This document shows, piece after piece, positions 11,025 through 27,789 of a stretch of DNA of 64,000 nt. A model generated the notes under the pieces. It ran no database searches. It was not told the origin of the DNA and saw only the letters and a program-made list of their open reading frames with translations. Numbering within the stretch: the stretch's first letter is position 1; each line of letters starts with the position of its first letter. The stretch comes from Embleya scabrispora (GTDB lineage: Bacteria; Actinomycetota; Actinomycetes; Streptomycetales; Streptomycetaceae): contig NZ_MWQN01000001.1 of assembly GCF_002024165.1 (NCBI RefSeq), positions 1-64,000 on the forward strand, written 5' to 3'. The position numbers and the translations under genes were made by a program.

Positions 11025-12682
11025 CTGCCGTCGGTCCGTTCCGCGTGGGTGGGCGCGAACATCCGCAGCAGGGCCGAGAGGACGACCACCCGAGGACCGG
11101 GCGCGGTCAGGGCCGCGGCGAGATCGCTTCTCAGCGTGGCGGGTGTGGCGCGTGTGGCCGGGACGCCGAAGGATTCGGCGAGCCGGACGAAGTCGGGGCG
11201 GGCCAGTTCGGTCCCGGTCGCCTCACCGAAGGTGTCCGTCATGTACTCGCGCAATATCCCGTAGCCGCCGTCGTCGACGATCAGCCACGTGACGTCCAGG
11301 TTCTCCTGGCGGGCGGTGGCCAGTTCGGCGATCGAGTACATCGCGCCGCCGTCACCGGAGACCGCGAGCACCGGACGTGCCGGGTCGGCGGTCGCCGCGC
11401 CGAGCGCTGCGGGGTAGCCGTAGCCCAGCCCGCCCGCGCCCTGTGCGGAGTGCATCGCGCCGGGCCGTCGAGCGTCCCAGGCGGACCAGGCCCAGTAGCC
11501 GAGGATGGTCATGTCGAAGAAGACCGGCGAGTCGTCGGGCAACGCCGCCCGCACCGCGGCGAGCACGGCCTGTTCGAGATCGAGCCCTTGGTCCGCGATC
11601 CGCGCGCCGACCCGCTCGCGGAGGGTACGGGCGATCGTCGCGCCCCGGCCGGGCGGTCGCGGCGAGACCGAGTCGCCGAGAACGGCGAGCGCGGTGCGCG
11701 CGTCGGCGTGGATGCCGAACGCGGGATGGACGGACTCCAGCTTGCTCGGGTCGGCCTCGATCTGGATGATCCGGCCTCGCGGGGCCAGCGTGTGGTAGTT
11801 GGTGGAGAGTTCGCCCAGTCCGGAGCCGACCACGAGCAACACGTCTGCGTCGTCCAGGAGTTCGGTGGTGTGCCGATCCTCCAACCACGACTGGAGCGAG
11901 AGCGGGTGCGTCCATGGGAAGGCGCCCTTGGCGCCGAACGTGCAGGCGACCGGCGCGTCCAGGATGTGCGCCAGGCGCAGCAGTTCCGCGCTCGCGCCGG
12001 CGCGGACCACGCCGCCGCCGGCCAGGATCACCGGCCGTTCGGCGGCGACCAGCAGCGCTGCCGCCTCGGCGAGCAGTTCGGGTCGGGCGAGCGGCACGCG
12101 AGGGCGCGCCCGCAGCCCGGTCACCCGGGGCACCTCGGTGGTGGCGAGCAGCACGTCCTGGGGGATCTCCACCCACACCGGGCCGTACGGCGGGGTGAGC
12201 GCGGACTCCCACGCCGCCGCGAGCACCGAGGGGATCTGCGAGGCCGCCCCCACCAGGTGCACGGACTTGACCACGTCGCGAAAGCTCGCCTGTTGGTCCA
12301 CCAGTTCGTGCAGGTAGCCGCGTCGTCGACCGCCGAGGCCGGCCGAGGGAATCTGGCTGGAGACGGCCAGGACCGGCACCGAGGCGGCGGCCGATTCCTG
12401 GAGCGCCGGCAACGCGGTCAGTGCGCCGGGGCCGGTGGACAGCAGCAGCGGGGCCACCGTGTCGGCGCTGCGCGCGTAGCCGTCCGCGGCGAAGCCCGCG
12501 TTGTTCTCCACCCGCAGTCCCGTGTAGCGCAGCGACGAGCGGCGCAGCGCGTCGAACAGGCCGAGCGCGTGTTGACCGGGCACCCCGAAGACGCGGTCCG
12601 CGCCCAGGTTGACGAGCGATTCGACGACCAGGTCGCCGCCGTTGCGGGTCGCGGGCGCTTTGGGTTCGCGGTCGGGATTCAT
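11021..12682 (-). CDS. ThDP-dependent enzyme of the acetolactate synthase/2-ketoarginine decarboxylase group
   Basis: 553 aa with the three-domain layout of ThDP enzymes: PYR domain with the cofactor-activating Glu ([15 protein letters not shown], residue about 58), central domain (residues about 195-330; [14 protein letters not shown]) and PP domain with the ThDP motif [12 protein letters not shown] followed after about 26 residues by DDGGYG. The usual NN of the motif is DD here, a notable substitution near the Mg site. Annotated homologues are often called acetolactate synthase, but pairing with an agmatinase-family gene recalls AruI, the 2-ketoarginine decarboxylase that works upstream of guanidinobutyrase. 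That role is inference. Both gene ends overlap neighbours by ATGA. Confidence 0.85.
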
Positions 12683-13641
12683 GCCCGCTCACCGGCGATC
12701 CGGCGCGCCATCAGCGTGGTCAGCTCGTAGGCGACATGCGCGGCGGCCACCGAGGTGATCTCGGCGTGGTCGTAGGCGGGGGCGACCTCGACCACGTCGG
12801 CGGAGACCACGTTGCACGCGGCCAGGCCGCGCAGGATCTCCAGGAGCTCGCGCGAGGTGAGGCCGCCGGCCTCGGGGGTGCCGGTGCCCGGGGCGTGGGC
12901 GGGGTCCAGGACGTCGATGTCGATCGAGATGTACAGGGGGCGGTCGCCGATCCGCTCGCGCAGTTGCGCGGCGACCTCGTCGACGCCGCGGCGCATGACG
13001 TCGGCCGACGTGACGATGCCGAAGCCCATCTTCTGGTCGTCGGTCAGGTCCCCTTTGCCGTACAGCGGGCCGCGGGTGCCCACGTGGGAAAGCGCCTCGG
13101 TGTCGAGGATGCCTTCCTCGACGGCGCGCCGGAACGGGGTGCCGTGGGTGTACTCGGCGCCGAAGTAGGTGTCCCAGGTGTCCAGGTGGGCGTCGAAGTG
13201 CAGGAGGGCGACCGGTCCGTGTCGGCGGGCGACCGCGCGCAGCAGGGGCAGCGCGATGGTGTGGTCGCCGCCGAGGGTCATCAGCCGGGTGCCGGACCTG
13301 AGCAGTTCCTCGGCCGCGGCCTCGACGGTGGCGACGGCCTCGTGGATGTCGAAGGGATTGGCCGCGATGTCGCCGGCGTCGGCGACCTGGGCGAGGGCGA
13401 ACGGCAAAGCGTCCTGAGCCGCGTTGTACGGGCGTAGCAGTCGAGACGCCTCGCGGATCGCGTTTCCGCCGAAGCGCGCGCCGGGCCGGTAGGAGACGCC
13501 CGAGTCGAAGGGCACCCCGACCACCGCGATGTCGGTGTGCGGGACTTCGTCCGTACGGGGCAGGCGAGCGAAGGTGGCGGGGCCCGCGTAGCGCGGGATG
13601 CGGGAGGAGTCGACGGGGCCGCGGGCGGCGGTGGAACTCAT
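12679..13641 (-). CDS. agmatinase/guanidinobutyrase-family ureohydrolase
   Basis: 320 aa. All binuclear Mn motifs of the arginase/agmatinase fold are present: LGGDHTI (residues about 122-128), [14 protein letters not shown] (about 146-158) and [19 protein letters not shown] (about 228-246). The enzyme hydrolyses a guanidino group to an amine plus urea. Agmatinase, guanidinobutyrase (GbuA) and guanidinopropionase (GpuA) share these motifs, so the substrate is open; the ThDP-enzyme neighbour and the aldehyde dehydrogenase remnant near the regulator fit a 4-guanidinobutyrate-type route. It is the first gene of the seven-gene operon, 262 bases from the divergent PucR-type regulator, with GAGG about ten bases before the ATG. 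Confidence 0.92.
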
Positions 13642-13903
13642 GGCGGAGGACCTCGCAAGGACAGCAGGAATCGCCTGCGGAAGGGGAATGTCGGGGCGCC
13701 CCGGAAAGCGCGGGCGCTGCCTGGAGCCGGGGCCGGAGCCCGAAGCGGCGGGGTCGGCGGTGGTTGTCGTACCGGGGGCGGCGCGGCAACCGCTCGCCTT
13801 GTGGGTATGAACCTACGTCCGGCCGGCGGCACCGGTGAAGTGGCTTTTCTGTCCATTACGATGAGTCAGGATAGATGAATCGTCCTGAACGGAAGGTGCC
13901 GCC
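13642..13903. promoter_or_regulatory. divergent promoter region of operon and PucR gene, with candidate operator
   Basis: The only intergenic space in this locus. At 13866-13888 there is an exact inverted repeat, TCAGGA, 11 bases, TCCTGA, nested in a second pair CGAT (13859-13862) and ATCG (13879-13882). This block is unusually A/T-rich for the window, lies 16 bases before the PucR start, and could be the regulator's own operator or its promoter region (GGATAGAT resembles a -10). The half nearer the agmatinase gene is GC-rich with no obvious motif. Operator assignment is inference. Confidence 0.5.
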
Positions 13904-15571
13904 ATGCCGTCGGCCGACGTGCCTCCTCCGACCGGCCCAGCCCAGGACGGACCAGGGCTCGACCTCGCCAACGACCCGAGCGTTCCGAGTGTCCCGCTGA
14001 GCGTGCTGCTCGCCGACCCGGCGCTGGGGCTGCGGCAGATTGCCGGCCCGCGCGAGGACCGGCCGATCTCCTCGACCGGGGTCACCGAGTTGGAGGATCC
14101 GACTCCGTACCTGATCGGCGGCGAACTCTTGCTCACCGCCGGGGTGCCGTTGCCCAAGACGCCCGAGGGCATCGACGCGTACGCGGGTCGGATCGCGCGG
14201 GCGGGCGCCGGCGCTTTGGGCTTCGGCCTGGTGCCGGTGTACGACGACGTGCCGAGCGCGCTGATCGAGGCATGCGACCGGCACGGGCTGCCTTTGTTGC
14301 GGGTGCCCGACGGCACGCCGTTCGTCGCGGTCAGCCAGGCCGCGCACGCCGCGATGACCGAGTCGCGTTATCGGGACCTGCGCCGGATCAGTCGGGCACA
14401 GGGCGCGTTGGTCACGGCCGCGGTCCGCGCCGACGCGCTGCGGTCCGTGCTCGATCGGCTCACGGTGCAACTCGACGCGTGGACCGTGCTGCTCGATCCG
14501 GCCGGCAACGAACTGGTGGCGTCGGGCGTACGGCCGGATTCGGGGGCGGTGGAGCGGTTGCGCGCATTGATGGCGCGCACCATCGCGCTGTCGCGCCACG
14601 GCGAGGCCGGTCGGGATCGGGTCGCACCCTCGACCGCCGCGGACCACCACGGCGGGCTGCACCTGACCGTGCACGCTTTGCCGGGCGGGGACGCCGGCGG
14701 CGTGCCGCCGGCGATCGGGGTCGTCGCGGGTACCGCACCGACGGCGGTACAACACTCGGTGACCGCGGTGGCGGCCGTGCTGTTGTCCCTGCTGACCAGC
14801 CCGCGGCACGCCCTCGGCGGCGACAGCCGCAGCTCGGCCGCGCTGGTGCGGCTGATGCTCGGCGGGTCACCGCAGGATGTGGCATCGCTGTTGATGCCGT
14901 CGACGCCGGGGGCCGGTTGGATCGTGGTCCGCGGTCGGCTCGGCGGGCAGCGACCGGGCCCGGGGCCCGATTCGGGAGACTACCCGGTGCAACTGGCCGC
15001 GTTGGGGACCGCTTTGGCCACGCCGTATCTGGACCTGCGCGAGCGCGAAGTCCACGCGTTGGTGCCCACCGCGCCCGGCTCGCCGGCCCCCGACCCCGCG
15101 GCGGCGAATCGGCTCGGGTGGACGCTCGGCTTCAGCGCGCCGTCGGCCACGGTCGACCTCGCGGTGGCTGCCAATCAGGCCGAGCGCGCGTTGCGGTACG
15201 CGCTCGCGGCGGGGGTCCCGAACCGGCGGCATCGACATCAGGACCTGAGCATGCACTCGCTCGTTTCGGCGGCCGACGCGGCCGCCCTGGCACACGCCCG
15301 ATTCGCGGCGCTGGCCGATGCGCCCTCGCCCGGCTACGACGTACTGCTCGAAACCCTGCGCACCTGGCTCGCCCATCACGGGAGCTGGGACCGCACCGCG
15401 ACCGCGCTCGGACTGCACCGCAACACCGTGCGCCAGCGCGTCGTCAGGATCGGCGATCTGCTGGACCTGAATCTGCACGACCCGGACGTTCGGATGGAAT
15501 TGTGGTTCGCCCTGCGCTGGCTGCCGGGCGAACGGCCGAGCACCGAGCGGGCGGGCACCGGCCCCGAGTAG
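13904..15571 (+). CDS. PucR-family transcriptional regulator of the divergent operon
   Basis: 555 aa. Residues about 30-160 match the PucR N-terminal sensory domain (VTELEDPTPYLIGGELLLTAGV, like the 'GELVLTTG' signature). A middle GGDEF-like region follows (residues about 310-430). The C-terminal 60 residues form the PucR-type helix-turn-helix (WDRTATALGLHRNTVRQRVVRIGDLL...DVRMELWFALRW). Start ATG follows GGAAGGTG seven bases upstream. PucR-type regulators control purine, polyamine or amine catabolism genes, usually divergent neighbours; EpuRI of Streptomyces coelicolor regulates polyamine use. Divergence from the ureohydrolase operon makes it the likely substrate-responsive regulator. Confidence 0.9.
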   Translation: MPSADVPPPTGPAQDGPGLDLANDPSVPSVPLSVLLADPALGLRQIAGPREDRPISSTGVTELEDPTPYLIGGELLLTAGVPLPKTPEGIDAYAGRIARAGAGALGFGLVPVYDDVPSALIEACDRHGLPLLRVPDGTPFVAVSQAAHAAMTESRYRDLRRISRAQGALVTAAVRADALRSVLDRLTVQLDAWTVLLDPAGNELVASGVRPDSGAVERLRALMARTIALSRHGEAGRDRVAPSTAADHHGGLHLTVHALPGGDAGGVPPAIGVVAGTAPTAVQHSVTAVAAVLLSLLTSPRHALGGDSRSSAALVRLMLGGSPQDVASLLMPSTPGAGWIVVRGRLGGQRPGPGPDSGDYPVQLAALGTALATPYLDLREREVHALVPTAPGSPAPDPAAANRLGWTLGFSAPSATVDLAVAANQAERALRYALAAGVPNRRHRHQDLSMHSLVSAADAAALAHARFAALADAPSPGYDVLLETLRTWLAHHGSWDRTATALGLHRNTVRQRVVRIGDLLDLNLHDPDVRMELWFALRWLPGERPSTERAGTGPE

Positions 15572-15654
15572 CGCGGCGCGGGTTGGATGTCGCGAGCCGG
15601 CACCGCTTGCTCGGCTCGCGGACCGGACCGGAGTCCGGGCTGTGATCCGAGTGA

Positions 15655-15869
15655 TCCGGTGGGGTTGCTCACCTACTCCGGGGAGTCCAACGCGAAAGCG
15701 GTGCACCTCGAACCCGGCGGCACGAGCCCGCAGTTGGTGTTCGCCGACGCGCCAAGCCGCGAGAACCGCAGCCTGGGCGATCACCTTCAACGCGGGCCAG
15801 ATGTGCACGGCGGGCTCCCGGCTCCTGGTCCAGGACACCATTGCCGAGCGGTTCGTCGCCGACGTGATC
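15655..15869 (+). pseudogene. aldehyde dehydrogenase fragment containing the active-site Cys region
   Basis: Two adjoining pieces in different frames read as one stretch of an ALDH: LLTYSGESNAKAVHLEPGG...PQLVFADAP (frame starting near 15655) and, after a frameshift near 15755, AWAITFNAGQMCTAGSRLLV...VADVIA. The second contains the catalytic Cys context (N-x-G-Q-x-C-x-A-G-S-R). About 70 of the usual 490 residues remain; both ends are missing and the 3' end runs directly into an unrelated repeat protein. An ALDH is the expected step between the ThDP decarboxylase and the ureohydrolase in a guanidinobutyrate-type pathway, so its loss beside the PucR gene is telling (inference). Confidence 0.75.
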
Positions 15870-17502
15870 GCCGAGCACCTGGCCGAACCGCGCCGCACCA
15901 CCGTCCTGAACCGGGCCCTCGATACCGCCCTCGCGCTCACCCACGAGCGCGACCGGGCCTGGGCGCTCGCGAACGTCGTACCGCACCTGCCCGAGCCGCA
16001 ACGCGCGAGCGTCCTGGCTCAGGCCCTCGGCACGCTCCGCGCGCTCCCGCACGAACTCCCGTATATGCACGCTCGGGAACACGCGCTGACACACCTCGCA
16101 TGCCACCTTCCCGAGGCGGAGCTGGGTCACGTCCTCGACGCGGGCCTCGCGCTCACCGACGAGAGCCGCCGGTTCTCGGTGGTCGAGCAGATCGGGGCGC
16201 GTCTGTCCGGGCCGCAAGGCGCCGCCGTCCTGGCCCAATCCCTCGACATGGCCCTCGCACTCGACGACGACGGCAACCGGGCCCGGGCGCTCGCGGACAT
16301 CTCGACCCGCCTACCTGAGCCGCAACGCACCACCCTCCTGACCGAAGCCCTCGACACAGCACGCACACTCGACGACGCGCGCGACCGCGCCTGGGCGCTC
16401 ACGCGCGTCGCGGCGCATCTGCCCGGGCCGCAGTGCACTGTCGTCCTGGCCCAAGCCCTCGACTCGGCCCTCGCCCTCCACGACGCGAACGACCGGGCAC
16501 CGGCGCTCGGGGGTATCGTGCCGCGTCTGTCCGAGCCACAACGCACCACCGTCCTGACCCGACTCCTCGACGGCACCCCCTCACCCACCCACGCGGCGTG
16601 CCGGGCACTGGCGCTCGTGGGCCTCGTGCCGCACCTCTCCGAGTCGGAATCGGGGCGGGCCTTCGACGCGGCCCTGGAGTTCACCGAGGAGATCCACCGG
16701 GCGCAAGCGCTCGTGGGCCTCGCTCCGTGCCTGTCCGAGTCGCAGATACGCAGAGCGCTCGACGCGGCTGGAGTTCACCGAGGAGATCCACCGGGCCTGG
16801 GTACCCCTGGGCCTGGTGCCGTACCTGTCCGCTTCGCAGCTCTCCCGAGCGCTCGACATGGTGCCCACGTTCACCAACGAGAACGACCGGTTCAGGTTGT
16901 TCGAGCGTGTCGTGTCGCGTGTGTCCGGGGCGCAGCGTGCCAGGGTCCTGGCCCTGGCCCTGGACACGGCCCGCGCGCTCGCCCGCCCGGGCCCCCGGTC
17001 GCGGGCACTCGCGGGCATCGTGCCGCATCTGTCCGAGCCGCAGCGTGCGGAGGTCGTCGTCCAGGCTCTCGACACCGCGCTCGTGGTCACCAACGACTTC
17101 GACCGGGCCCGGGCACTCGCCGGCCTCGTACCGTACCTGTCCGCGTCACAGGTGAGCCGGGCTCTCGACGCCACCCTCGCGCTGGCCTACGACCACGAGC
17201 GCGTCCAGGTGTTCGAGGTCATCGCGCCGCTCCTGACGGAAGCGGACCTGCACTGCGTCCTCGCCCGGGGTGAGGAGATCACGAAGGCGTTCCTCGGAAC
17301 CTCCTTGGGGCCGCGGCAGCTCGCGCGCCTGTCTCGGGACGCCGTCCTGCACGTGTTCCGGTCGGGCGTCGACCACGGGGCCAGGGCGGACGTCCTGGGC
17401 CACCTCGTGGCATGTCTACCCGCCCTGCGAGCCCACGGTGTGGACATGGAGGCCGACGATGTGTGTCGCGTCCTCGACGACGTCGTACGGATCTGGCCCT
17501 GA
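15870..17502 (+). pseudogene. helical-repeat protein with ~32-residue repeats, 5' truncated and frameshifted
   Basis: The protein is an array of about a dozen alpha-helical repeats with the consensus LPEPQRTTVLxxALDTALAL-x(2-3)-DRAxALAxIxP. It has no start of its own: the frame comes straight out of the aldehyde dehydrogenase fragment. Near 16768 the array shifts frame: the coding sequence for LEFTEEIHRA occurs at 16674 and again 94 bases later, where a 96-base unit is expected, that is, a 2-base deletion. After the shift the array continues to a non-repeat C-terminus (HGVDMEADDVCRVLDDVVRIWP). Arrays of this style occur as C-terminal sensor regions of large STAND/NACHT-type proteins in actinomycetes (recalled, not checked), so this may be the tail of such a protein. 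Confidence 0.7.
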
Positions 17503-17732
17503 ACACGTCGGACCCGGCGGCGCAGTCGGAACCATCCCCGGCCGGGCACTGTGCGCGGGTGACACGCCCATGCCGGAACCCGTCAGTGCGCCGCTCCGCT
17601 CCCGGTATCGCTCGCGTGTTCCGGGTCCGGGGCCGACGGCCCGGCACGGCGAACGATGCCGTCGCACGGATGGTTGCCACGGCGTCGACCGCAGCGCGGG
17701 CCGGGAATCCGTGAGCGGTCGGGGGTTTCGGG

Positions 17733-18287
17733 GTGGCGGGTGTGTGGGACGTGGTCGAGGAGTCGCGGCGCGAGGTGTGGTCGTTCACACCGTTCGAGCA
17801 CGTGGGCCCGTTGAGGTTCGGCATGACCCACGAGCGGGCGGCGGCCGCGGTCGACGGGGTCCTGAAGACCATCGTTTCGCAGGGGGACGGCACCGGGTGG
17901 GTGTCACAGGCCGACATGTGGCCCGTCCACTACGGCGCGGGGGCGGGGGTGCACCTGTACTACGACCGGGCGATCGGGCTGGCCGCGATCGCGATCGACG
18001 CGCGGATGGGTCCGCAGGTGGACCTGGACGGGATCCCGCTGGTGGGCCGGGTGCCGTCCCTCCTGGAGGACGCGTTGATCGACCATCTCACCGCACACTC
18101 CATCGAACCGGCGTTCTCCCTGGAGGCGAACCCGTGCGCGCCCGACATCGGTGTCGTGATGCGCGTCCAACGCGCCGGGGACCGCGTCCCGACCCGGCCG
18201 GTCCTCGTCGCCCGGGACTGGGCACCCCGATGCTCGGACGCATCCGAGGGCCGCATCCCCGACGACGAATGGCGCAGGTTCTCCTGA
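17733..18287 (+). CDS. GPLRFGM-family protein (copy 2)
   Basis: 184 aa from a GTG start. It shares with copies 3 and 4 the N-terminal block FxxVGPLRFGMT (residues about 20-33), a beta-rich middle (GVHLYYDRAIGLAAIAIDA) and the block GPQVDLDGIPLVGR (residues about 92-105), ending in IPDDEWRRF. The GM(T/S) helix start resembles the GM-T-x-x-x-V element of SmpA/BamE-like folds, but there is no signal peptide or lipobox here, so a cytoplasmic protein is likely. Function unknown. It lies between the broken repeat protein and the graspetide locus, on its own strand, with no obvious partner. Confidence 0.72.
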   Translation: MAGVWDVVEESRREVWSFTPFEHVGPLRFGMTHERAAAAVDGVLKTIVSQGDGTGWVSQADMWPVHYGAGAGVHLYYDRAIGLAAIAIDARMGPQVDLDGIPLVGRVPSLLEDALIDHLTAHSIEPAFSLEANPCAPDIGVVMRVQRAGDRVPTRPVLVARDWAPRCSDASEGRIPDDEWRRFS

Positions 18288-18363
18288 GCACACGCCCGAT
18301 TCCGGGCGAAGGGATCGGCATCTCCGGTCCGACGCGCCCTCTCCCACGCCCTGGTACCCGAAG

Positions 18364-19164
18364 TCAGTCGGGTGCACTGGTGGCGTGTGCGATGAGGGCT
18401 TCGAGTTCCGGGGCCGGCCACGGGCGGGCCTGGGCGAGGGAAACGTGGTGTCGGCCGGTGGCGATGTCCTCGAGGAGGTCGTCGAGGGTGACGCCCGGCC
18501 CGACGTCCCGGGTGGTCTGGGGGGTGGTTCCGGTCCAGGCCCAGCGCAGGGCGGCGGCGAGGGCGTGGCGTTCGTCGGCGGGGGTGAGTCGGATGTGGGT
18601 GTCGGGTGCGCTGTGCAGGAGTCGTTGGGCGACGCCGGGTGTGGTGGCGTGGTCCATGCCACCGCGGTACGGGGCCGCCGGTGGCAACAGGTCGGGGTGA
18701 TGGGTGTATTCGTGGTCGACGAACACGGGCTCGTCGGTGGGGCCGATCAGGATGTTCCAGGGTTGGAGGTCACCATGGCGCCATCCGGCGCCGTTCAGGT
18801 GTTCCAACGCCGTGAACGCGCGGTGGGCGACGGTGAGCAGGCGGGGTGCGAAGTCGGGTGGCGGGTCGGGGGCTCGGCCCGGGGCGCACCACTGCCACAG
18901 GTCGACGCCGGGTAGGAACTCCACCGCAGTCCAGATCCCGTCGCCGACGCGCCCGTGTTCGGCGTGCGCGGGATGCAGGCCCTGCGCGTGCAGCAGCCGC
19001 ACCGCGCGGGCCTCGTGCAGGAGCAGGACCGCAGCCGCGGGGTCGGCCGTGGACTTGATCTTCCAGCGGCCGGCGCGCCAGGCGTGGGTGTGGTGTGTGG
19101 TCAGGGCGCGGGGCTCGTCGGTGACATCGAGGGCGGCGACAGCGGCGGCGAGCAGCGGGTCCAT
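18364..19164 (-). CDS. kinase-fold protein (APH/choline-kinase type) of the graspetide locus
   Basis: 266 aa. The phosphotransferase catalytic motif HGDLQPWNILIG is at about residues 145-156, followed by the metal-binding FVDHEYTHH. The N-terminal lobe keeps a candidate ATP-binding Lys (AGRWKIKSTADP). An acidic/hydrophobic C-terminus follows. ATG 19164 is chosen because GAGG lies eight bases upstream; a GTG two codons earlier overlaps the stop of the ATP-grasp gene as GTGA but would have almost no spacing. It is the third gene after the precursor and the ATP-grasp ligase, where a methyltransferase is more usual. It may phosphorylate the peptide or a small molecule; unproven. Confidence 0.8.
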   Translation of the reverse strand: MDPLLAAAVAALDVTDEPRALTTHHTHAWRAGRWKIKSTADPAAAVLLLHEARAVRLLHAQGLHPAHAEHGRVGDGIWTAVEFLPGVDLWQWCAPGRAPDPPPDFAPRLLTVAHRAFTALEHLNGAGWRHGDLQPWNILIGPTDEPVFVDHEYTHHPDLLPPAAPYRGGMDHATTPGVAQRLLHSAPDTHIRLTPADERHALAAALRWAWTGTTPQTTRDVGPGVTLDDLLEDIATGRHHVSLAQARPWPAPELEALIAHATSAPD

Positions 19165-19166
19165 CG

Positions 19167-20141
19167 TCACATCCTCGCGCGAATGGGCACCACGCGGTGT
19201 CGGGTGGCGGTCGTGCGGGTGTGGTGGGTGAGGAGTCGGGCGATCTCGGTGGAGATCGGCAGGCCGGCCAGGGCTTCGATCCAGCCGAATTCGCCCGCGC
19301 AGTTGGTCTCCAGGTAGGTCCAGCCGTCGGCGGTGACGACGAAGTCCAACGCGGCGTAGCGCAGGCCCAGGTCGCGTACGTGCTCCCGGCAGGCGCGTTC
19401 GACGTCGGCGGGTGGAGTGATCGGGGCGTGCCGGCAGTCCGCGGCGAGGACGGTGCGCCAGTCGAGGGCGCCGGGGGTGGTGATGGAGGCGGCGAAAACG
19501 CGGTCGCCGACCACGGTCACCCGGGCATCGAAGAGGCGGTTCTCGACGAGGGCTTGGAGGTAGTGGAGGGTGCCGGCAATGGCGTCGAGGTCGTCGGACG
19601 CGCGCAGGCGGGTGGTGGGGACGAAGGTTGTGTGGCGTTGGGTCAGGGCCTTGACCACGACCTTGTCGTGGTGGTCGGTCACGAACGCGCGGGCTCGGGC
19701 CGGGTCGCTCGTGAACAGCGTGTCGGGTACGCGCATGCCGTGACTGGCGGCGGACGCGAGTTGGGCGGGTTTGTGCTCGGCGGCGTCCACCACGACCGGA
19801 TCGTTGACCCACAGCACCGGTTGGGCGCGCAGCAGTCCCAGGAGGGCGATGGTGTTCTCCTCGGCGCGCCATCGGTCGTCCGGGTCGGGGTGTGTGTCGG
19901 GATGGGTGGGTTTGCGCCAGTACACCGCGCATCCGGGGCCGATCCTCGCGGTGCGCCAAACGTCGTCGACGACGGTGGTCCAGGCACCGGCGGCGAACCG
20001 GCCGCCGACGGTGAGGCTTTCGTGGAGGCGGCCGGGGTCCATGCGGACGAACGCGTCGCGGTCGAGGCGACTCACCACCAGGTCGGCGGTGAAATCGCTC
20101 TCGGCCGCGACGACGATCACGCGGGCTTCGCGAAGGCGCAT
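19167..20141 (-). CDS. tgmB: ATP-grasp RiPP maturase (graspetide ligase, SAV_5884/TgmB type)
   Basis: 324 aa. ATP-grasp features: a conserved N-terminal pre-ATP-grasp domain with AVYWRKPTHP and RWRAEENTIALLGLL, the KVVVKAL nucleotide-binding strand (residues about 180-186) and a C-terminal catalytic block DFVVTADGWTYLETNCAGEFGWIE with Asp, Glu and Asn Mg ligands. Such ligases activate Asp/Glu side chains of a precursor peptide and form ester or amide cross-links to Ser/Thr/Lys (established for graspetides). The ATG shares bases with the TAA of the precursor gene (TAATG), and the stop lies two bases before the kinase-like gene. Confidence 0.9.
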   Translation of the reverse strand: MRLREARVIVVAAESDFTADLVVSRLDRDAFVRMDPGRLHESLTVGGRFAAGAWTTVVDDVWRTARIGPGCAVYWRKPTHPDTHPDPDDRWRAEENTIALLGLLRAQPVLWVNDPVVVDAAEHKPAQLASAASHGMRVPDTLFTSDPARARAFVTDHHDKVVVKALTQRHTTFVPTTRLRASDDLDAIAGTLHYLQALVENRLFDARVTVVGDRVFAASITTPGALDWRTVLAADCRHAPITPPADVERACREHVRDLGLRYAALDFVVTADGWTYLETNCAGEFGWIEALAGLPISTEIARLLTHHTRTTATRHRVVPIRARM

Positions 20142-20356
20142 TACTTGGGGTCGTCCTTGCGGCGCACGCCGCCCTGGTCCTGGGTGCTGGTGTAGTTCGC
20201 CACCGTCGCGGGATCGACCGCCTTCACCAGCAGGCGACCGTCCGCGACCACGTTCGCGCCGACCAGCGGGTCATAGTGGTGGTCGGGAAGCGGGGACGCA
20301 TCGCGGGTCGGTGCGGGGGCCGCGAGGCGGCGGGTCAGGAGCAGCGGTGTGGCCAT
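20141..20356 (-). CDS. tgmA: graspetide precursor peptide
   Basis: 71 aa from the ATG preceded by AGGG. The leader contains HHYDPLVGANVVADGRLL, resembling the YDP...DG leader element of ATP-grasp-targeted peptides; the C-terminal 20 residues (TSTQDQGGVRRKDDPK) hold three Asp as likely acceptors with Thr, Ser and Lys as possible partners. The gene ends in TAA overlapping the ATG of the ATP-grasp ligase. Family and length match the putative ATP-grasp-modified RiPP group found beside SAV_5884-type ligases. Ring pattern cannot be read from sequence. Confidence 0.82.
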   Translation of the reverse strand: MATPLLLTRRLAAPAPTRDASPLPDHHYDPLVGANVVADGRLLVKAVDPATVANYTSTQDQGGVRRKDDPK

Positions 20357-20528
20357 GGGGGAAGCCCTTTCAGGTGTCGGGTCGCCTTGGCGGGTGGTGT
20401 GAACTGCTGTGCGTTTCCAGGAGAGCGCGTCGTCCCTGGCGTGGGAAGGGTGTGTGCGGATCGTGCAATCGGTGTGCGTGTCGTGCACACGGCGTCGACG
20501 CAGGGTGATTCACCTGCACAATGCGGTC
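20357..20528. promoter_or_regulatory. divergent promoter region of the graspetide locus, with inverted repeat
   Basis: Between the precursor gene and an unknown gene on the other strand. An inverted repeat GTGTGC, 7 bases, GCACAC lies at 20472-20490, and a nearly palindromic GTGATTCAC at about 20506-20514. Either could bind a dimeric regulator that controls both directions. No clear -35/-10 pair is seen. Confidence 0.4.
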
Positions 20529-21179
20529 ATGGTCGAAGACGAGCACAGTGGCGCAGAACCGCGTTCCTTCTCGGCATGCGTGTCGGAGGTGGCTCGGCTG
20601 CTGGGCGTCGTAGACGTCGCCACGAAGTCGAACGATCAGGTCCGTCGCCTCGCCCTCGCGGTGCGCCGGCCCCTGCTCGAACGCGCAAGTCTGCCGGACG
20701 AATTGTTCGCTCCGCTAATGGCGGCGGCTGTCCACGACCCGGATCCCAGTTTCTGCCGCTGGTTCGTCGAGCCGGCCGTCTACGCGTTCGGGCGCCGCCG
20801 CGTGATGGCGGCACTGGTCGAGTACCTGCGGGTCGGCACGGATGCCGAGCGTGCGGGTGCCGTGCGGGCCTGGTACATGGCCCATGTTCCTTTGCGTGCG
20901 GATCGGTCTCCGGCCTACGGACCCGGCGGGGTGCGCGATCCCGCCCTGGACGAGTCACAGCAGGCCCGGACCGCGTGGCTCGAGGCATCCATGCGCGTGT
21001 TCGCGAACGCCACCGACCTGCAGATGCGCCACCGTGTCCTGGTGAATCTGCCCACGTCCCCCACGGCGTACCCGCCATCTCTGCACGAACTATGCGAACA
21101 CACACTCGCATCCGCCCGGGCCCACCCCGATCCACACGTCCGCCACTGGGCAGCGACAGCGGACCGCGAGCGAGCCTGA
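20529..21179 (+). CDS. unknown 216-aa helical protein divergent from the graspetide locus
   Basis: Start chosen at ATG (MVEDEHSGAEPRS), since the longer frame adds Cys/Arg-rich sequence that does not look coding. The protein is helix-rich, soluble, with hydrophobic/charged alternation (VRRLALAVRRPLLERASLPDELFAPLMAAAV; HDPDPSFCRWFVEPAVYAFGRRRV) and resembles HEAT-like helical proteins common in Streptomyces. The C-terminus carries repeated HPDPHVRHWA-type loops. Family not recognised. It is divergent from the graspetide precursor and may share its control region. Confidence 0.6.
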   Translation: MVEDEHSGAEPRSFSACVSEVARLLGVVDVATKSNDQVRRLALAVRRPLLERASLPDELFAPLMAAAVHDPDPSFCRWFVEPAVYAFGRRRVMAALVEYLRVGTDAERAGAVRAWYMAHVPLRADRSPAYGPGGVRDPALDESQQARTAWLEASMRVFANATDLQMRHRVLVNLPTSPTAYPPSLHELCEHTLASARAHPDPHVRHWAATADRERA

Positions 21180-21729
21180 GCCCGATTCCCACAGGCCCCG
21201 ACAGTTACGGGACAACCCGTCGAGAGCCGGACACCGGAGCGCGGGATCCGTACCGCCCCGACCACCCCGTGTCACCACGAACGGCCCGCCGGCCCGGCGA
21301 ACCAGGTGGGGCCGGTGTCATTGCGCGGCGACCACGTGGACGCGCAGGTCGCCGGTGATCGCGGGGACGGACGCGCCCCGTGGGCGTCCAGACGGGTCCG
21401 ACAGAGGGTCGTGGCGCCGGATCCGGCACGGGAGACGAACAGCACGGTGTACGGCGGACACCGGAGTGGCGGCCGGCTCGATACCGAGAGCGCCGAGGCG
21501 GCGGGTCTCGCTGATCGGCTCTGTACCAAAGCCGGCGGCCTGCAATCGAGTTGTCGTCGGTAACGGCCTCGACCGTGCCCACCGGGCCCGGCCGGGCGTC
21601 ACGTGCCGGGGCGGGGTCGTGCCGGAGCGAAGGCTTGCCGCGTCGTGGCGCACCAAGCGGCGTGGCGGGGCGGGTTGCGAGTGCGCAACGACCGCCGATG
21701 CGGGCGCGGTTGCGGGCCACGATGGGGGC
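21180..21729. other. 550-base stretch with only a possible gene tail
   Basis: The minus strand at about 21318-21380 encodes a short coding-like end (GASVPAITGDLRVHVVAA) followed by TGA, perhaps the last codons of a lost gene. No other frame shows sustained coding third positions. No repeats or hairpins of note. Confidence 0.35.
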
Positions 21730-22449
21730 ATGTCTTCGCGTCCCGATACGCGGCCGATGGGTGGTTGCCTGTTGTGGCTCGGCCGGTTCGTCCTGGCCGT
21801 GATCACCCTGGCCTTCGTGACCGTCCTCGGCGGACTGTACGCGTGCCACCGGCAGTTCGCTGCGGACGAAAGGGAAGGGGAGGCACACGAGAGGCATCGC
21901 GCGGAGGAACGGCGTGCCCGGGACGATGTGGAGGTGCCTTTCCGGGTGTTCGGCCGGCCGACGAATGCGGAGTTCGAGCGCTTCGTCTTCGACCGGTGTT
22001 GGCGCGACACCGCGCCCCGGACGAAGCCGCAGGCGGGCATGATGGGCGTGATCTGCACCTCCACGGTCGTGTACTTCTACGGTGCGGACGATCCCACGAC
22101 GTCGACGGCCGAGTTCGAGCGCGAGGCGCGAAGGCTCGGGTCGACACCGGACACGGCAACCTGGGCGAGACCACAACCGGTTCCGGACCTGCGCCCCCCG
22201 GACCCGACGCCCCCACCGGGCGCGGGCGAGCAATATAGCCCGCTCGGAGGGAGTTGGAGCAGCCCGTACGCCGAACCCGTGCGTTGGCAACACGCCTACA
22301 CCGAGCACCCGTTCGTCGTCCGCGCATCCGTGACGATCCACTACCGGACCGAACGCACCAGGCCGAAACCCACCCCGCCCCACACCCCGATGTTCCCCCA
22401 ACCATCCGCGACCTGCGCAGGCGGCAACCGCCCGTGGAGCTGCCTGTGA
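21730..22449 (+). CDS. unknown membrane-anchored protein
   Basis: 239 aa from an ATG preceded by GGGGG. Residues about 11-35 form one membrane helix (CLLWLGRFVLAVITLAFVTVLGGL), with a basic N-side, so the remaining 200 residues are probably outside the cell. They begin with a highly charged helix (DEREGEAHERHRAEERRAR), then a mixed domain with a Cys pair (DRCWRDT, VICTSTVVYFYG), and end in a Pro-rich part. No catalytic motif recognised. No operon partner: the next gene is a truncated BRCT piece. Confidence 0.6.
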   Translation: MSSRPDTRPMGGCLLWLGRFVLAVITLAFVTVLGGLYACHRQFAADEREGEAHERHRAEERRARDDVEVPFRVFGRPTNAEFERFVFDRCWRDTAPRTKPQAGMMGVICTSTVVYFYGADDPTTSTAEFEREARRLGSTPDTATWARPQPVPDLRPPDPTPPPGAGEQYSPLGGSWSSPYAEPVRWQHAYTEHPFVVRASVTIHYRTERTRPKPTPPHTPMFPQPSATCAGGNRPWSCL

Positions 22450-22748
22450 CCCACGACGGCCTCTCCTCGCGCCCGCCCGCGCGGGCATGTGCACAACCGA
22501 ACTCGGTGACCATCTCGACGGGGCGCATCCCGTGGTCCGCCGCAGATCACCAGGCTCAGGCAGCCAAGCCGCGGTCGACGGCGAGGGATGCGCTGTGCCC
22601 ATGGGCAGCGGCAGAGGGAGAGGACCTCGGAGGGCATCATGCCTCGGCACCGGGTCAGGTCGAGTCGACCGTTGGTGTCGCCCGGGAGCGGCCGGGCCAG
22701 GACGGGTCCCCGTGGTGATCGAGTCGGGCGTGGACATGTCCGTCTCAG

Positions 22749-23006
22749 TTGCCGTTGGCAGGCCAAGCAGTGGTCGTCACGGGCGCCATGGTCGGGCCCC
22801 TGGCCGCGCTCTCCCGCAACGAGATGAACGAACTCGTCGAACGCGCCGGCGGGGGCGCCGCCTCGAGCGTCTCCGCCAAGACGACCCTTGTCGTGGCCGG
22901 CGACAAGGCCGGATCCAAACGAGCCAAGGCCGAAGGCTTGGGCATCCGCATCGTGACCCCGGAGGAGTTCACGACGCTGGTGGCGCCGCTCCTGGAGGGT
23001 CGTTGA
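22749..23006 (+). CDS. stand-alone BRCT domain, probably a 5'-truncated gene
   Basis: 85 aa from a TTG. The whole length is one BRCT fold: [12 protein letters not shown] at the first strand, [32 protein letters not shown] in the middle and the typical end [15 protein letters not shown] domains bind phosphopeptides or DNA ends and occur at the end of NAD-dependent DNA ligases and of exonuclease-BRCT proteins. Only 11 codons upstream there is an in-frame stop, and no ribosome site is evident, so I think the N-terminal catalytic part has been lost. It could still be a small expressed protein. Confidence 0.6.
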
Positions 23007-23205
23007 CGAGTCGGGCTCGGCCGGCCGTGTGAGGTCCGTCTTCGCCGCGATGGTTGCCCGGGGTGGCTGTCACATCGCCGGCACGCGATCCTCGGGCCGG
23101 CGTCGGGATCGACAGGGTTTCCGGGCACCGGACGGCGGTTGCGCGTTGTCGGGGCCGGTGGGGTGGTACGCCGGGTGTGCACGACGATGTTCCGGGGAGG
23201 TTGAC

Positions 23206-23814
23206 GTGTGGTGGATGGAGCAGTGGGCCGTGATCGCCGAGGGCGAGCGCGCGCACTGGGACTACGTGCCGTTCGAGCGGGTCGGGCCGCTGCGTTTCGG
23301 TATGACCCGCGAGGGCGCGGGGGTGGTGATGCGGGAGGCGGGTTTCGTCGCCGAGTTCGAGGCGATCGACCGGCGCGGTCCCCACGGGCAACAGCGGGGC
23401 ACCTTCCGCAGGCACAGGACCGACCCCTGGGCACCTTCCTACGACGTCCTCGCGTACTTCGTGGACACGATCGGTCTGGCATGCGTCGTCGTCGGTGCCC
23501 GCAGTGGTCCCCAGGTGGTGATGGACGGAATCCGGCTCATCGGCCGCCCACCCTCCGACGTGGCGAGCGAACTTGTTGCGTACCTCGAACAGCGGAACAT
23601 GCTCATCCAGTTCATGCCGAGCGGGGACGTCGGCTCGACGGACCTGGGATTCTTCCCGGACGCCCAACGAGGCGGTGACACCCTCGTCTCCTGCGCGCTG
23701 TTCGGCCGACCCAACGCGCGGGCCCTCAGCGTGTGGGACAGCATTCCGAACGACGCCTGGGATTGGATCCGACCCGCCGCCGGGCGGAACGTGCCGGCGG
23801 TGGGACACCGGTGA
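23206..23814 (+). CDS. GPLRFGM-family protein (copy 3)
   Basis: 202 aa starting at GTG (VWWMEQWAVIAEGE), with GGGGAGG five bases upstream. The motif YVPFERVGPLRFGMT is at residues about 20-34; the second block GPQVVMDGIRLIGR is at about 103-116, preceded by the beta-rich IGLACVVVGAR. The C-terminal part differs from copies 2 and 4 (DLGFFPDAQRGGDTLVSCALF) but keeps the final W-D-x-I-P element. No signal peptide. Function unknown; it is monocistronic between the BRCT piece and a Nudix gene. Confidence 0.75.
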   Translation: MWWMEQWAVIAEGERAHWDYVPFERVGPLRFGMTREGAGVVMREAGFVAEFEAIDRRGPHGQQRGTFRRHRTDPWAPSYDVLAYFVDTIGLACVVVGARSGPQVVMDGIRLIGRPPSDVASELVAYLEQRNMLIQFMPSGDVGSTDLGFFPDAQRGGDTLVSCALFGRPNARALSVWDSIPNDAWDWIRPAAGRNVPAVGHR

Positions 23815-24005
23815 CGACGCCGCGGACCGGACGACCGGAGTGTCGTACTCCCGGCGACGCCGGCGCGGTCCTACTACCTCGCGCGTACGTAGGGGGTGTC
23901 TGTGATGTCGTCTCCGTGAAGGTGGGGTGGGTGTCGGCGATGGGGATGGCGGGGTGCACGGGGGTCCTTCCGGGTCGGGTGCGCCGACCCGGAAGGTTGT
24001 CCGGG

Positions 24006-24512
24006 TCAGCGGTCGTCGGGTGTGGGGGTGTTGCCGTGGTGGAGGTAGGCGGTGGTGCCGGTGGCGAGGGCGTGGGCGCAGGCGTGGAGGCGGCGGGCCA
24101 TGTGGGGGGCCATCAGCCGGTCCCACTCGGCCGGTTCGGCCAGGTGCCAGGAGGAAAGCTCGTCGTCGGCGAGGTGCAGGTGTCGTTCGGCGTCGGCGCG
24201 GGTGAGGGTGCCGCCGTCGAACAGGTGGTTCGCGAGCGCGGGGCGGCCGTCGGGCTGTGGGGGGACCCGGTCGACGACGAGGAGTCGGCCGGGTAGCAGG
24301 TCGAGTCCGAGTTCCTCTTTGACTTCGCGGCGGGCGGTGTCCCAGGGGTATTCGCCCTCGTCCATGGCGCCGCCGGGGATCTCCCAGTGGCCGTCGCCGT
24401 AGGCGGGTTCGACCAGGAGGATCCGGCCGTGGGGGTCGTGGAGGATCGCTCCGGCGCCGCCGATGTGCTTGGGCAGCGTGCCGTAGTACTCGGCGGGAGG
24501 AAGGTGGGTCAT
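24006..24512 (-). CDS. Nudix hydrolase
   Basis: 168 aa from ATG (MTHLPPAEYYG). The full Nudix box GGAMDEGEYPWDTARREVKEELGL follows the G-x5-E-x7-R-E-U-x-E-E-x-G-U rule (residues about 47-69). An N-terminal strand precedes it (HIGGAGAILHDPHGRILLV). Nudix enzymes cleave nucleoside diphosphates linked to other groups; the substrate here is unknown. The longer open frame upstream is low complexity. Next to it on the same strand lies an integrase remnant, with no sign of an operon. Confidence 0.85.
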   Translation of the reverse strand: MTHLPPAEYYGTLPKHIGGAGAILHDPHGRILLVEPAYGDGHWEIPGGAMDEGEYPWDTARREVKEELGLDLLPGRLLVVDRVPPQPDGRPALANHLFDGGTLTRADAERHLHLADDELSSWHLAEPAEWDRLMAPHMARRLHACAHALATGTTAYLHHGNTPTPDDR

Positions 24513-24582
24513 GCCCGGGGACGGTAGTGCCGTGCCGCCGCCGGGGTGAGGCGGCACGGCGGGTTGCGACGAGCGTGTGTTG

Positions 24583-24825
24583 TCAGTCCGCATTGGCGGT
24601 CTCCTCGCGTTGGTTCTGGCCGTCCTCCAGCTCGCTGATCCTGCGCTTGGGGTTGTCGGCGACCTGCTGGTTCATCTCGGCGACGCGGGCGTGGCCGCAG
24701 CCGGTGGCGTTGTCGATCAGTGTCTGGGTTCGGGTTCGTTGGTCGCGGAGTTGGGGCAGGAACTCGGGTCCGGTGAGGAAGACAGGGCAGGTCGAGCAGG
24801 CTTCTCTGAACTTGGCCCGGATCTC
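24583..24825 (-). pseudogene. C-terminal remnant of a phage/ICE-type integrase
   Basis: The minus strand reads EIRAKFREACSTCPVFLTG...QLRDQRTRTQTLIDNATG...MNQQVADNPKRRISELEDGQ and ends in TGA. This Cys-x-x-Cys start (CSTCPVFL) and Gln/Arg-rich helical tail match the C-terminal extension I recall from Streptomyces site-specific recombinases of the tyrosine type. About 80 codons are left; upstream the frame meets a stop within 17 codons and there is no catalytic domain. It marks an excised or deleted mobile element. Confidence 0.55.
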
Positions 24826-24873
24826 GATGCATGTCGTTGTAGGCGACAGCCCGCTTGTCGGTCCTGAAGGTCA

Positions 24874-25116
24874 TTGCCGGACTTGATGCAATGGATCGGC
24901 GGCTACTCGGCCGCGCTGACGGTGCATGGCTTGGACGAGGGCTTCGAACTTGGCATAGCCGGTCCGTTCACGAACTGGTTGAGCTGGAACTATGGCACAT
25001 CGCTTTCCGGCGGGTGGGTTGCTGCTGTTGAGCAACTGGCCCAGGAAGGTGAATCGTCAGTCGAGGCGTTCTTTCAACTACTGGACGCCTACCGTGCCGA
25101 GTCCGCAGCCATCTGA
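24874..25116 (+). CDS. small unknown protein, possibly N-terminally truncated
   Basis: 80 aa from a TTG (or 76 aa from ATG 24886). Pattern: WIGGYSAALTVHGLDEGFELG, then FTNWLSWNYGTSLSGGWVAAVEQLA, then a helix EAFFQLLDAYRAE. It recalls a family of about 110-120-aa actinobacterial proteins with an N-terminal RPGMYLG motif followed by the same blocks. That motif is missing here because an in-frame stop lies three codons upstream. No ribosome site is evident. It may therefore be a leftover rather than a working gene. Confidence 0.5.
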   Translation: MPDLMQWIGGYSAALTVHGLDEGFELGIAGPFTNWLSWNYGTSLSGGWVAAVEQLAQEGESSVEAFFQLLDAYRAESAAI

Positions 25117-25388
25117 CCCACGCTTCGGGCCCGACTCAGGCGGCCTTTTCGGCAGCCGCTCAGATGCGGCTGGGTGCGGCGACGGGACCGGCCCATCCCG
25201 CGCCTCACGCACTTGCGGAACTGGTCGCGGATCTGTCCGCGGTCCACCGCCGTCCTGGGCTCGTCCTCGTCCCCGCCCGCGGCAGGTGCCTCCCCTCATC
25301 CGTCACGGGGCCATGGTGTCACGGTCGGGCATGAGGAGCACCTGAACGCGGACGACGTGGGCGGTCGTCGTGGACCCGGGTGGGCACG

Positions 25389-26482
25389 TCAGCGAGGTCG
25401 CCCTCGCCGGAGTCGGAGGGCGCCCCAGACCGAACCCGCGAGGATCACGGCCGATACGCCGATCAATACGATCGGGGAAACGGTGTTGTCCGGTTCGTCG
25501 AGCGCCACGCGAACGGGTGCGGGCGGCGCGAAGGGAGCCGGCGGTGTCGAGGGATCCGGCGGAGGGGTGGACGGTGTGCTCTTCGCGGTGTGGCCGATGA
25601 AGGAGTTCACGTCGGGGGACCGGGATCGGCGGTGGACTGCAGCGCCTGACGCGGCCGCACGACGCCGTATCCGACGAAGTCGTTCGGAGTGGTGCTGTCC
25701 GGCAGTTGCACCGCCGTGTCCACAAGACGCCGGATCGCCTGGTTGTCGGTCCAGTCGGGATGCTTCGACCAGACCAGGGCGGCGGTACCCGCCACGATCG
25801 GCGAGGAGAACGACGTGCCGTTCGTGACGCAGCAGCGCGACGCGTGCTGCGTGGGCAGGCACGCAACAGGAATGGCTTCCACCGGCGCGGCCAGGGACAC
25901 CTGGGGTCCGCGGGTCGCCCGGTCCCACAGTTCCGCGCGGGTGGTTCCGTCCTTCGTGCTCTTGACACCCGCGACCGCGAGTACCCCCGGATAAGCGGCC
26001 GAATATCCGACGGCGGTGTTGGCCAAGACCTCGTTTCCTCTGGAGGCCACGATCAACCTGCCTTTTCCCAGGGCGTATCGGACGGCTTCCTCTTCCTGGC
26101 GCCACGGCGTTCCCGAGAGGGAGATGTTGTTGATTTTCGCCTCGGAGTCCGCCGCGGCGCGAATCGCGGTGGGTTCGATCGCGTGCGACCCGAACGGGTT
26201 GTCCCTGTCGTGCGCCTTGATCGGCAGGATCCGGGCGTCCGGAGCGATGCCGATCACGCCGGGTGTCGAGCCGTGCCCGGCGCCGGTGCCGGCGATGACG
26301 CTGGACACGGACGTTACGTGGCCGTCGACGTCGCTCTGGCCGGTGTCGACACGGCCGGTCCTGAAGCCGGTCACGACGTCGATTCCCGGCAGGACCCGCC
26401 CCCGCAGATCCGGATGGCCTCCGTCGACGCCCGTGTCGATGACGGCCACGGTCACTCCCGCGCCGCGTGAGATGGTCCACAC
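25389..26482 (-). pseudogene. S8 serine protease of mycosin (MycP) type, 5' truncated and frameshifted
   Basis: Most of a subtilisin domain is readable: AVIDTGVDGGHPDL (Asp), SDVDGHVTSVSSVIAGT (His), INNISLSG (oxyanion Asn) and NGTSFSSPIVAGTAAL (Ser). The first frame stops at 25607 (GPPT, then TGA). One base out of phase the rest continues: a Pro-rich stalk, one membrane helix (SPIVLIGVSAVILAGSVWGALRL) and a basic tail ending at 25389. This Pro-rich stalk and C-terminal anchor are typical of type VII secretion mycosins. The shift lies in a run of five Cs, so a sequencing error is possible. At the 5' end, signal peptide and pro-region are absent and an in-frame TAG precedes the domain. Confidence 0.75.
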
Positions 26483-26510
26483 CTCGTCTTCGGGTCCGAC
26501 CTACTGTCAG

Positions 26511-26692
26511 GCCATACGGCGGCGGTCTGCGGCGCAAGGCCGTCGTCGGTGAACTCGACGAGGTCGTCGATCACCTGTGCAACCCCGCCCCGCGCACATC
26601 CTGGCGACCATGGCTTCACGGCCGCCGAATTCGCCGGGACCATAGCGTGCGACCACCGCGGTCTCGCCGTCCACGAGCGGGGGCAACTCGCC
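26511..26692 (-). pseudogene. coding-like remnant upstream of the mycosin remnant
   Basis: Two out-of-frame coding-like pieces on the minus strand: ELPPLVDGETAVVARYGPGEFGG...MVARM and then VAQVIDDLVEFTDDGLAPQTAAVW. Third positions are strongly G/C in each piece, so this is a decayed gene rather than random sequence. I do not recognise the family. The rest of the interval 26483-26940 shows nothing readable. Confidence 0.35.
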
Positions 26693-26940
26693 CGCTCCGC
26701 GGACCGCTTCGAACGATCACCGGCTCGCAGTCGGTCAAGGCCGCCGCAACGGTGGGCAAGGAGGGAGAGGCTGCCTCAGCACAGCACGGCTTCGATCACG
26801 TGGGCCGCCATCACCCTGACGACGAGGAGCTTGGCCCGGCTCGATCAAGGATCGTTCCCGTTGTGCCGACGCTCCTCATGCCGCGTGAAGATCGCGACCG
26901 GGGCGATCACGAGGAGGCGGATGGTTGCTGCAGATCGTCC

Positions 26941-27447
26941 CTACGTTCTCGAACTGCTTACGGGGGCGCCCTGGCGGAGCCGCCTCGGGGCAGGTGCCTT
27001 CCGGCGGGCGGCCGCGAGGATGAACATCGTCACTGCAGTGAGCCCGGGACCGTAGGCACCGAAGGTCACATACCTGGGGATTTCGTCTGCGCGGAAGCCG
27101 CTTCCGTCCGGGGTGGTGCATGTGAGGTCGAACGGCAGGATGCTTCCTTCGATGCCGTTGACATGCATCGACTTGTCCGCTCCGCCCGCGTTGATGCAGG
27201 CCCGGGGCGGGCTGGAGTTCGTGCCGCCGTCGGTGGAATCCAGGATCGCGAATCCGACCGCCAGGAAGCCCAAGGTGAAGAACACCGCTGCGACGGCGCC
27301 TATGACGGAGGCGGCACCGAAGAGCACATCTCGCCTTCCGGGTCTTCCGGCGGTATGACGGATAAGAGCGGAAAGTCCCGTGACGGCAAGAATGAGGGAG
27401 ATGCAGGCAGCGATGAGTGCGAGAAGCAGATAGCCCGTCAGCTGCAC
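26941..27447 (-). CDS. small integral membrane protein
   Basis: 168 aa with a GTG start (VQLTGYLLLALIAACISLILAVTG). Three hydrophobic helices are seen: residues about 4-26, 38-66 (LFGAASVIGAVAAVFFTLGFLAVGFAIL) and 135-150 (YGPGLTAVTMFILAAA), with a loop between helices 2 and 3 that holds two Cys (RACINAGG, DLTCTTPDG) and may be extracellular. The tail is strongly basic. The start is uncertain: an out-of-phase ATG just upstream (MVNMELSAPAP) would be a more natural N-terminus, hinting at a frameshift. Function unknown. Confidence 0.55.
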   Translation of the reverse strand: MQLTGYLLLALIAACISLILAVTGLSALIRHTAGRPGRRDVLFGAASVIGAVAAVFFTLGFLAVGFAILDSTDGGTNSSPPRACINAGGADKSMHVNGIEGSILPFDLTCTTPDGSGFRADEIPRYVTFGAYGPGLTAVTMFILAAARRKAPAPRRLRQGAPVSSSRT

Positions 27448-27789
27448 CGCACCGGCGCCGGCGCCGACAATTCCATGTTCACCATGAAGCGATGCTAGGG
27501 GACCTTGCCATCCGCAGTTTCCCGCGCGACGGGAACTTCCGCTTCCGTTCCGGAAGTTCGTACAAGCGGATACCTCAACGGGAACCGATACATACACGCC
27601 GCCGTCGACGACCGCACCACTGCCGCCGCACACGCCGCCCTCGACCCCGAGCTCTTGGCCCACGAACACGGCCGATGGGACGCGAGTCGCGGACGGGCGT
27701 CGATCAACGCGGCCGACCCCTGCGGGACATGAACCGGGCACCACGTCGTAGCGGGCGGCAGCAACTCGGGGCAGAAACGCTGGTAAGGG

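Follow-up and report, generated by a model that had tools for sequence, protein, structure and literature searches.

The LanL and LanKC lanthipeptide synthetases phosphorylate RiPP precursors, and the phosphate is then eliminated by a lyase. Other kinases of such precursors are described in the available parts of two reports: CaoK phosphorylates a class V lanthipeptide precursor (PMC9486802), and PadeK a lasso peptide precursor (PMC9266682). For the graspetides, Carter et al. (2026; PMC13097080) mention phosphotransferases that co-occur with groups 29 and 37, in Actinomycetota only, and the available part of their article gives no function for them; the available part of PMC8939145 does not mention a phosphotransferase. 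Our literature searches for graspetides in Embleya found no paper, and those pairing graspetide with kinase or phosphotransferase, whose coverage was partial, found no published test of the graspetide-associated kinase.

The locus described here lies in a stretch of 64,000 nucleotides from Embleya scabrispora, called the window in what follows. An earlier note on this DNA had described a graspetide locus whose third gene encodes a protein with a kinase fold, and a precursor, a ligase and a kinase are indeed found at exactly 18364-20356. The Embleya operon is real, conserved and present in several copies. Its product may be a phosphorylated graspetide, which can be put to the test; the co-occurrence as such is already published.

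Layout of the locus, its ligase and its precursor

The features of the locus are given below. The core is a prediction, and the roles of the kinase residues are assigned by analogy.

20141..20356, minus strand: graspetide precursor gene, 71 aa; ATG at 20356, stop at 20141-20143 (stop included)
20144..20194, minus strand: predicted core YTSTQDQGGVRRKDDPK, precursor residues 55-71
19167..20141, minus strand: graspetide synthetase (ATP-grasp ligase), 324 aa; TIGR04187, 6.3e-77
18364..19164, minus strand: LanL-like / protein-kinase-like kinase, 266 aa; ATG at 19164, stop at 18364; NCBIfam LanL, 4.9e-13
18754..18777, minus strand: catalytic motif HGDLQPWN, kinase residues 130-137
18709..18717, minus strand: D150-H-E152, metal-binding motif by analogy
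19054..19056, minus strand: beta-3 lysine K37 of the kinase, role by analogy
18379..20517, minus strand: longest block in common with paralogous loci of other species (L031, L032), covering the operon and ~160 bp upstream; blastn

The last block comes from a blastn comparison of positions 10001-30000 of the window with 17 loci. In the window trio, the stop of the precursor and the start of the ligase overlap in the string TAATG, and the ATG of the kinase lies 2 nt past the stop of the ligase. This second gap is of 2-3 nt in nine of the 15 trios in which it was measured; the remaining six spacings are 35, 85, 85 and 125 nt, and two overlaps. Chance does not account for the order of the three genes, which is the same at each of 16 loci that have an intact Embleya-type ligase.

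The ligase falls in the ATP-grasp synthetase family of the graspetides, as judged by TIGR04187 and by matches to structures of the MdnC/CdnC type. It scores 258.8 bits against TIGR04187 (E = 6.3e-77), short of the curated model cut-off of 350; a profile of its relatives (A3) has its best PDB match in 9bou (7.8e-58); microviridin-type ligases and CdnC come next.

Next to it stands a precursor with a leader and a core containing Ser/Thr/Lys and Asp/Glu, as indicated by TIGR04186 and by the conservation of the core. Against this NCBIfam model, named 'putative ATP-grasp-modified RiPP', the window precursor has an E-value of 0.0025, with a score under the cut-off; ten of the 12 members of the precursor alignment match it at E <= 0.1, the best at 6.8e-05. 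Five residues, Y55, T56, T58, Q59 and D68, are invariant in this 12-member alignment. The unique precursors of the family, that of the window included, number 27 and yield 15 complete core types: Tyr1, Thr4 and the final Asp-Asp are kept in all 15, while Thr2, Gln5 and an acid at position 6 are each kept in 14. The core type of the window has one additional residue and a Pro-Lys tail. In three of the 15, the only Ser, Thr or Tyr residues are Tyr1, Thr2 and Thr4, and one of these three core types is found in a complete trio (L136).

The precursor profile also detects eight orphans of the same family, with no intact ligase or kinase adjoining (L168, L169, L170, L171, L172, L173, L175 and L176). 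Four orphan precursors, forming two ortholog pairs between G000 and G001, were inspected gene by gene: one core is without Thr2 and Gln5.

Family, motifs and predicted fold of the kinase

The third protein had been labelled APH/choline-kinase-like, with an intact HGDxxxxN motif. The motif is present as HGDLQPWN, residues 130-137, and D150-H-E152 is intact as well. The kinase part of the label holds, and the APH/choline part proves too narrow: Pfam APH (PF01636) gives 17.4 bits, under its gathering cut-off of 23.2, and the kinase models of lanthipeptide synthetases score higher. NCBIfam LanL is the top match of the window kinase, with 48.3 bits over the kinase region, a value far below the full-length cut-off of 650. 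The LanL and LanKC models match the kinase region of all 13 kinases scanned, at best with 9.8e-19 and 3.2e-13, far under the full-length cut-offs; the Pfam profiles found in these kinases at E <= 0.01, all of them weak, are APH (11 of 13), Kdo (10 of 13) and Pkinase (8 of 13). PadeK is HPr-kinase-like; the Pfam scans of the kinases contain no HPr-kinase family at E <= 0.01.

Among the sequences of solved structures, the best matches of the kinase are PknA/PknB (1e-08), and lanthipeptide synthetases come lower in the list. The AF2 model has a mean pLDDT of 90.6, and its Foldseek matches are protein kinases: the top rows are eukaryotic, and CuvL (8cav), a class IV lanthipeptide synthetase, holds rank 4, with the highest identity (23%) among the 50 matches listed and a modest TM of 0.57 by query. 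From profiles and predicted fold, the protein appears to be better described as close to protein kinases, notably to the kinase part of LanL/LanKC, than to APH/choline kinase.

In a comparison of 22 kinases, HGD, Asn137 and D150 are each present in all 22, residue 152 is always D or E, and the alpha-C Glu is kept in 21; the roles of all these residues are assigned by analogy. The beta-3 position has Lys in 20 kinases and Arg in two (L046 and L052), both of them without an adjacent ligase. This pattern bears on the idea that the kinase-fold protein mainly binds or folds with the ligase and the precursor, and is not a phosphotransferase. Such partners have precedents in the available text of two sources: some graspetide ligases depend on a partner protein (rosaritide MirC; PMC13097080), and some RiPP clusters contain cyclases that have a kinase fold but no kinase activity (PMC12291118). 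The Arg of some ligase-less copies would suit a partner as well. However, the RosX-type proteins of the latter source are without catalytic residues, whereas all 22 kinases compared here retain HGD, Asn and D-x-[DE], and the kinase gene survives next to the precursor at loci that have lost the adjacent ligase. We therefore hold a partner role to be improbable.

The trio within and outside Embleya

The sample consists of four Embleya genomes (G000-G003) and of records of two further strains. It contains 16 loci where a ligase of the Embleya type is intact, when the pair on contigs C1 and C7 is counted once: two in G000, four in G001, three in G002, three in G003, one in Embleya sp. NBC_00888, and three in Embleya sp. 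NBC_00896 (two records). Two of the G003 loci, C394 and C1130, have the same precursor and ligase sequences, and could represent a single locus that was assembled twice. The earlier note had proposed to look for the same trio in other genomes, and a lack of conservation had been set beforehand as grounds to give up its reading. What we observe is that the kinase gene begins directly downstream of the ligase at all 16 loci and is intact at 14 of them; in the other two it is cut after residue 73 (C394) or has a stop after residue 197 (one trio of NBC_00896). At least nine relics of kinase or ligase, in fragments, are scattered among the Embleya genomes, and given these relics and the common orphan precursors, some copies may be decaying.

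Values of dN/dS range from 0.15 to 0.61 for the kinase (10 pairs) and from 0.16 to 0.52 for the ligase (9 pairs). A Mantel comparison of 11 loci gives a correlation of r = 0.917 (p = 0.0001) between kinase and ligase distances, and of r = 0.846 between kinase and precursor distances; genes travelling together would give such values anyway, and an interaction is not proved by them. With 16 positions out of 16, a dN/dS below 0.62 in 10 pairs out of 10, and a history shared with the ligase, the kinase is not a passenger gene in most copies. More telling than the correlation, as regards the linkage of precursor and kinase, are the pairs that have no ligase: in G002 and in NBC_00888, an intact precursor and an intact kinase stand 112 and 97 nt apart, their dN/dS being 0.44 (precursor) and 0.48 (kinase). 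These loci show that the kinase gene can persist without an adjacent ligase.

The same observations weigh on two other readings. In the first, the kinase acts on the ligase or on a regulator, or else on a small molecule, and its position in the operon is incidental. A protein-kinase-like fold is what one would expect of such an enzyme, and the kinase has relatives elsewhere in other contexts; but its position is fixed at 16 loci, its history is shared with both the ligase and the precursor, at the correlations just given, and it stays beside the precursor when there is no ligase, all of which makes this reading quite unlikely in our eyes. In the second, the kinase protects the producer by inactivating the finished ring peptide inside the cell, like the antibiotic phosphotransferases, and the active product carries no phosphate. 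This agrees with the APH-like scores of 11 of the 13 kinases and the Kdo-like scores of 10, and with a small excess of loci in which the kinase is intact and the ligase absent or broken, four (L046, L135, L052 and G000:C6:76k) against two of the converse kind, which is what orphan immunity genes might show. Yet two of those four kinases have Arg in place of the beta-3 Lys, the nearest family matches include the peptide kinases LanL/LanKC, and neither the operon nor its flanks show an exporter: self-protection seems to us unlikely, if worth keeping in mind.

The window forms the start of contig C1 of its genome, which holds a second trio, identical to the first, on contig C7. Positions 14571-20517 of the window, on C1, are 99.95% identical to G000:C7:1-5946, and the identity ends 161 bp upstream of the precursor start; beyond 20517, C7 and two other species run on together and C1 diverges. 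We interpret the block as the border of a repeated chromosome end, with the ancestral upstream sequence kept in C7. Homology among the loci extends over the operon and at most 160 bp upstream. A common promoter or insertion signature of the dispersed copies was sought in the 260 bp upstream of 15 loci and discarded, no k-mer being common to more than six, and these k-mers revealed no mechanism of spread.

Some features of the surroundings deserve mention. Two ORFs, 17733-18287 and 23029-23814, flank the operon and have a PFExVGPLRFGMT stretch in common; Pfam gives no match for the first, parts of which are also present in L032 and L033. Positions 15866-17209 of the window are self-similar at multiples of ~108 bp, according to blastn self-matches obtained via the C7 copy, and encode LPEPQR-type repeats.

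Outside these loci, the kinase profile detects no kinase near other actinobacterial graspetide ligases (0 of 46 fetched non-Embleya loci, E <= 10), and the HGD....N motif occurs near those ligases in three unrelated upstream ORFs (L091, L101, L127). Within Embleya, coordinates place no kinase beside the other graspetide ligases at 10 loci. Any match to the profile at E <= 1e-15 is found in 42 of 200 Streptomycetaceae genomes, and four of 394 class-level genomes, the window's own included, match it at E <= 1e-28. No ligase or precursor lies within ~1.5 kb of 25 non-Embleya relatives of the kinase (L060-L084), and the complete trio was not found outside Embleya in these samples, which are subsets of genomes and loci. 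At 23 of the Streptomycetaceae loci matched by the kinase profile (L062-L084), HGD....N is absent from every frame of the fetched stretch; they possibly hold diverged kinases.

Two of the three nearest kinases outside Embleya (L054, and L138 on a plasmid of Streptomyces sp. P9-2B-2) are the last genes of an operon that encodes a peptide of 48-50 aa, an MBL-fold protein, a phosphotransferase-like protein, and then the kinase; the 13-kb locus of the third (L055) contains no MBL motif. The unit of peptide, MBL-fold protein and phosphotransferase is found without this kinase in three more genomes, where the peptides end in YHR or YHH. Its positions are as follows.

L138: 3297-6789
L193: 3585-6160
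L194: 2884-5398
L195: 5407-7748 and upstream
L054: MBL 6705-8135, kinase 4985-6634

Over the five loci, the peptide has ~50 aa or fewer and ends in P-x-[TSY]-Y-H-[RH], and the phosphotransferase-like protein has no Pfam match. The unit is possibly an undescribed RiPP-like system, which a kinase of the Embleya type follows at two of the five loci. This suggests that such a kinase has been recruited into more than one peptide operon.

Proposed function and comparison with known systems

Our preferred reading, in which we place moderate confidence given the order of the genes, their conservation, the kinase motifs, the predicted fold and the linkage of precursor and kinase without a ligase, is that of a graspetide operon in which an active LanL-like peptide kinase serves as tailoring enzyme and would put its phosphate on the core of the precursor. 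Going by its family, the ligase would join T56 and T58, as ring esters, to acids close to the C-terminus, namely D68/D69 and perhaps the acid that follows Gln59. The kinase would recognise the same precursor, presumably via the conserved leader, and would phosphorylate a hydroxyl of the core: most likely that of the invariant Tyr55, or else that of Thr56 or Thr58. In the graspetide family generally, both Thr are ring donors; if they are so used here, Tyr55 would be left free. Residues of the leader may be further targets.

The phosphate would stay on the peptide, because no phospho-Ser/Thr lyase accompanies the kinase, and the product would be a phosphorylated graspetide. One can imagine that an unlinked lyase eliminates the phosphate and leaves dehydroamino acids, as in lanthipeptides, and the likeness to the kinase domains of LanL/LanKC goes in that direction. 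But the operon is without a lyase, Cys is absent from all 15 core types, and a search for lyases of the HopA1 type (PF17914), the one type searched, finds none in the four Embleya genomes at E <= 0.001, the control search matching one of 14 named genomes. Phosphorylation as a mere intermediate step is thus, of all the readings considered, one that we find very improbable.

Phosphorylation of a ring-ester peptide, if it takes place, would add a new step to the tailoring of graspetides and account for the phosphotransferases reported next to two of their groups. Thanks to the compactness of the operon, the 15 natural core types and the pairs without ligase, the substrate, the target residue and the order of the steps can be tested directly. 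A wider conjecture, which we put forward tentatively and would not ourselves bet on, is that of a family of phosphorylated graspetides in Embleya: a stand-alone kinase derived from LanL would act on the invariant core Tyr or on a ring Thr, could do so without the ligase, may serve orphan precursors in trans, and would have been recruited again into the unrelated peptide-MBL-phosphotransferase operon, as a portable RiPP kinase.

Among known systems, LanL/LanKC supply the best curated-family match of the kinase, and CuvL a fold match. The Embleya kinase differs in standing alone: its 266 aa match the kinase part of the models only and hold neither the lyase nor the cyclase that class III/IV synthetases carry in the same protein, and the ring former is an ATP-grasp ligase. 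The class V LanK proteins (CaoK, LxmK, RosK) resemble it by description, being stand-alone APH/protein-kinase-like RiPP kinases that act on the precursor, in the available text of PMC9486802 and PMC12291118; they differ by their HopA1-like lyase partner, of which the four Embleya genomes gave no match. The lasso peptide kinases PadeK and PsmK are tailoring kinases of RiPP clusters whose phosphate is retained, and they target a C-terminal Ser, according to the available part of PMC9266682, whereas the last residues of the Embleya cores are Asp-Asp or Asp-Asp-Pro-Lys.

Graspetide groups 29 and 37 are, like the Embleya loci, from Actinomycetota and associated with a phosphotransferase; the comparison is with a text description, which in its available part includes no sequences, genus or function, and in which the word kinase is absent. 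The earlier note had spoken of a 'newly tailored' graspetide. The variant trio with a kinase stands, and the novelty is weakened, because the phosphotransferases beside these two groups are already mentioned in the available text of PMC13097080.

Finally, the Streptomyces-type graspetides of TIGR04187/TIGR04186 are alike in ligase family, in a leader with YDP...NV...G, and in a core with Thr and a C-terminal Asp-Asp. No kinase of the Embleya type is found in 46 fetched loci, and the Streptomyces cores listed are mostly TTTSTAGSKTHFDD-like, without the YTxTQ start of the Embleya cores; the Tyr and the Gln thus belong to the family that is linked to the kinase.
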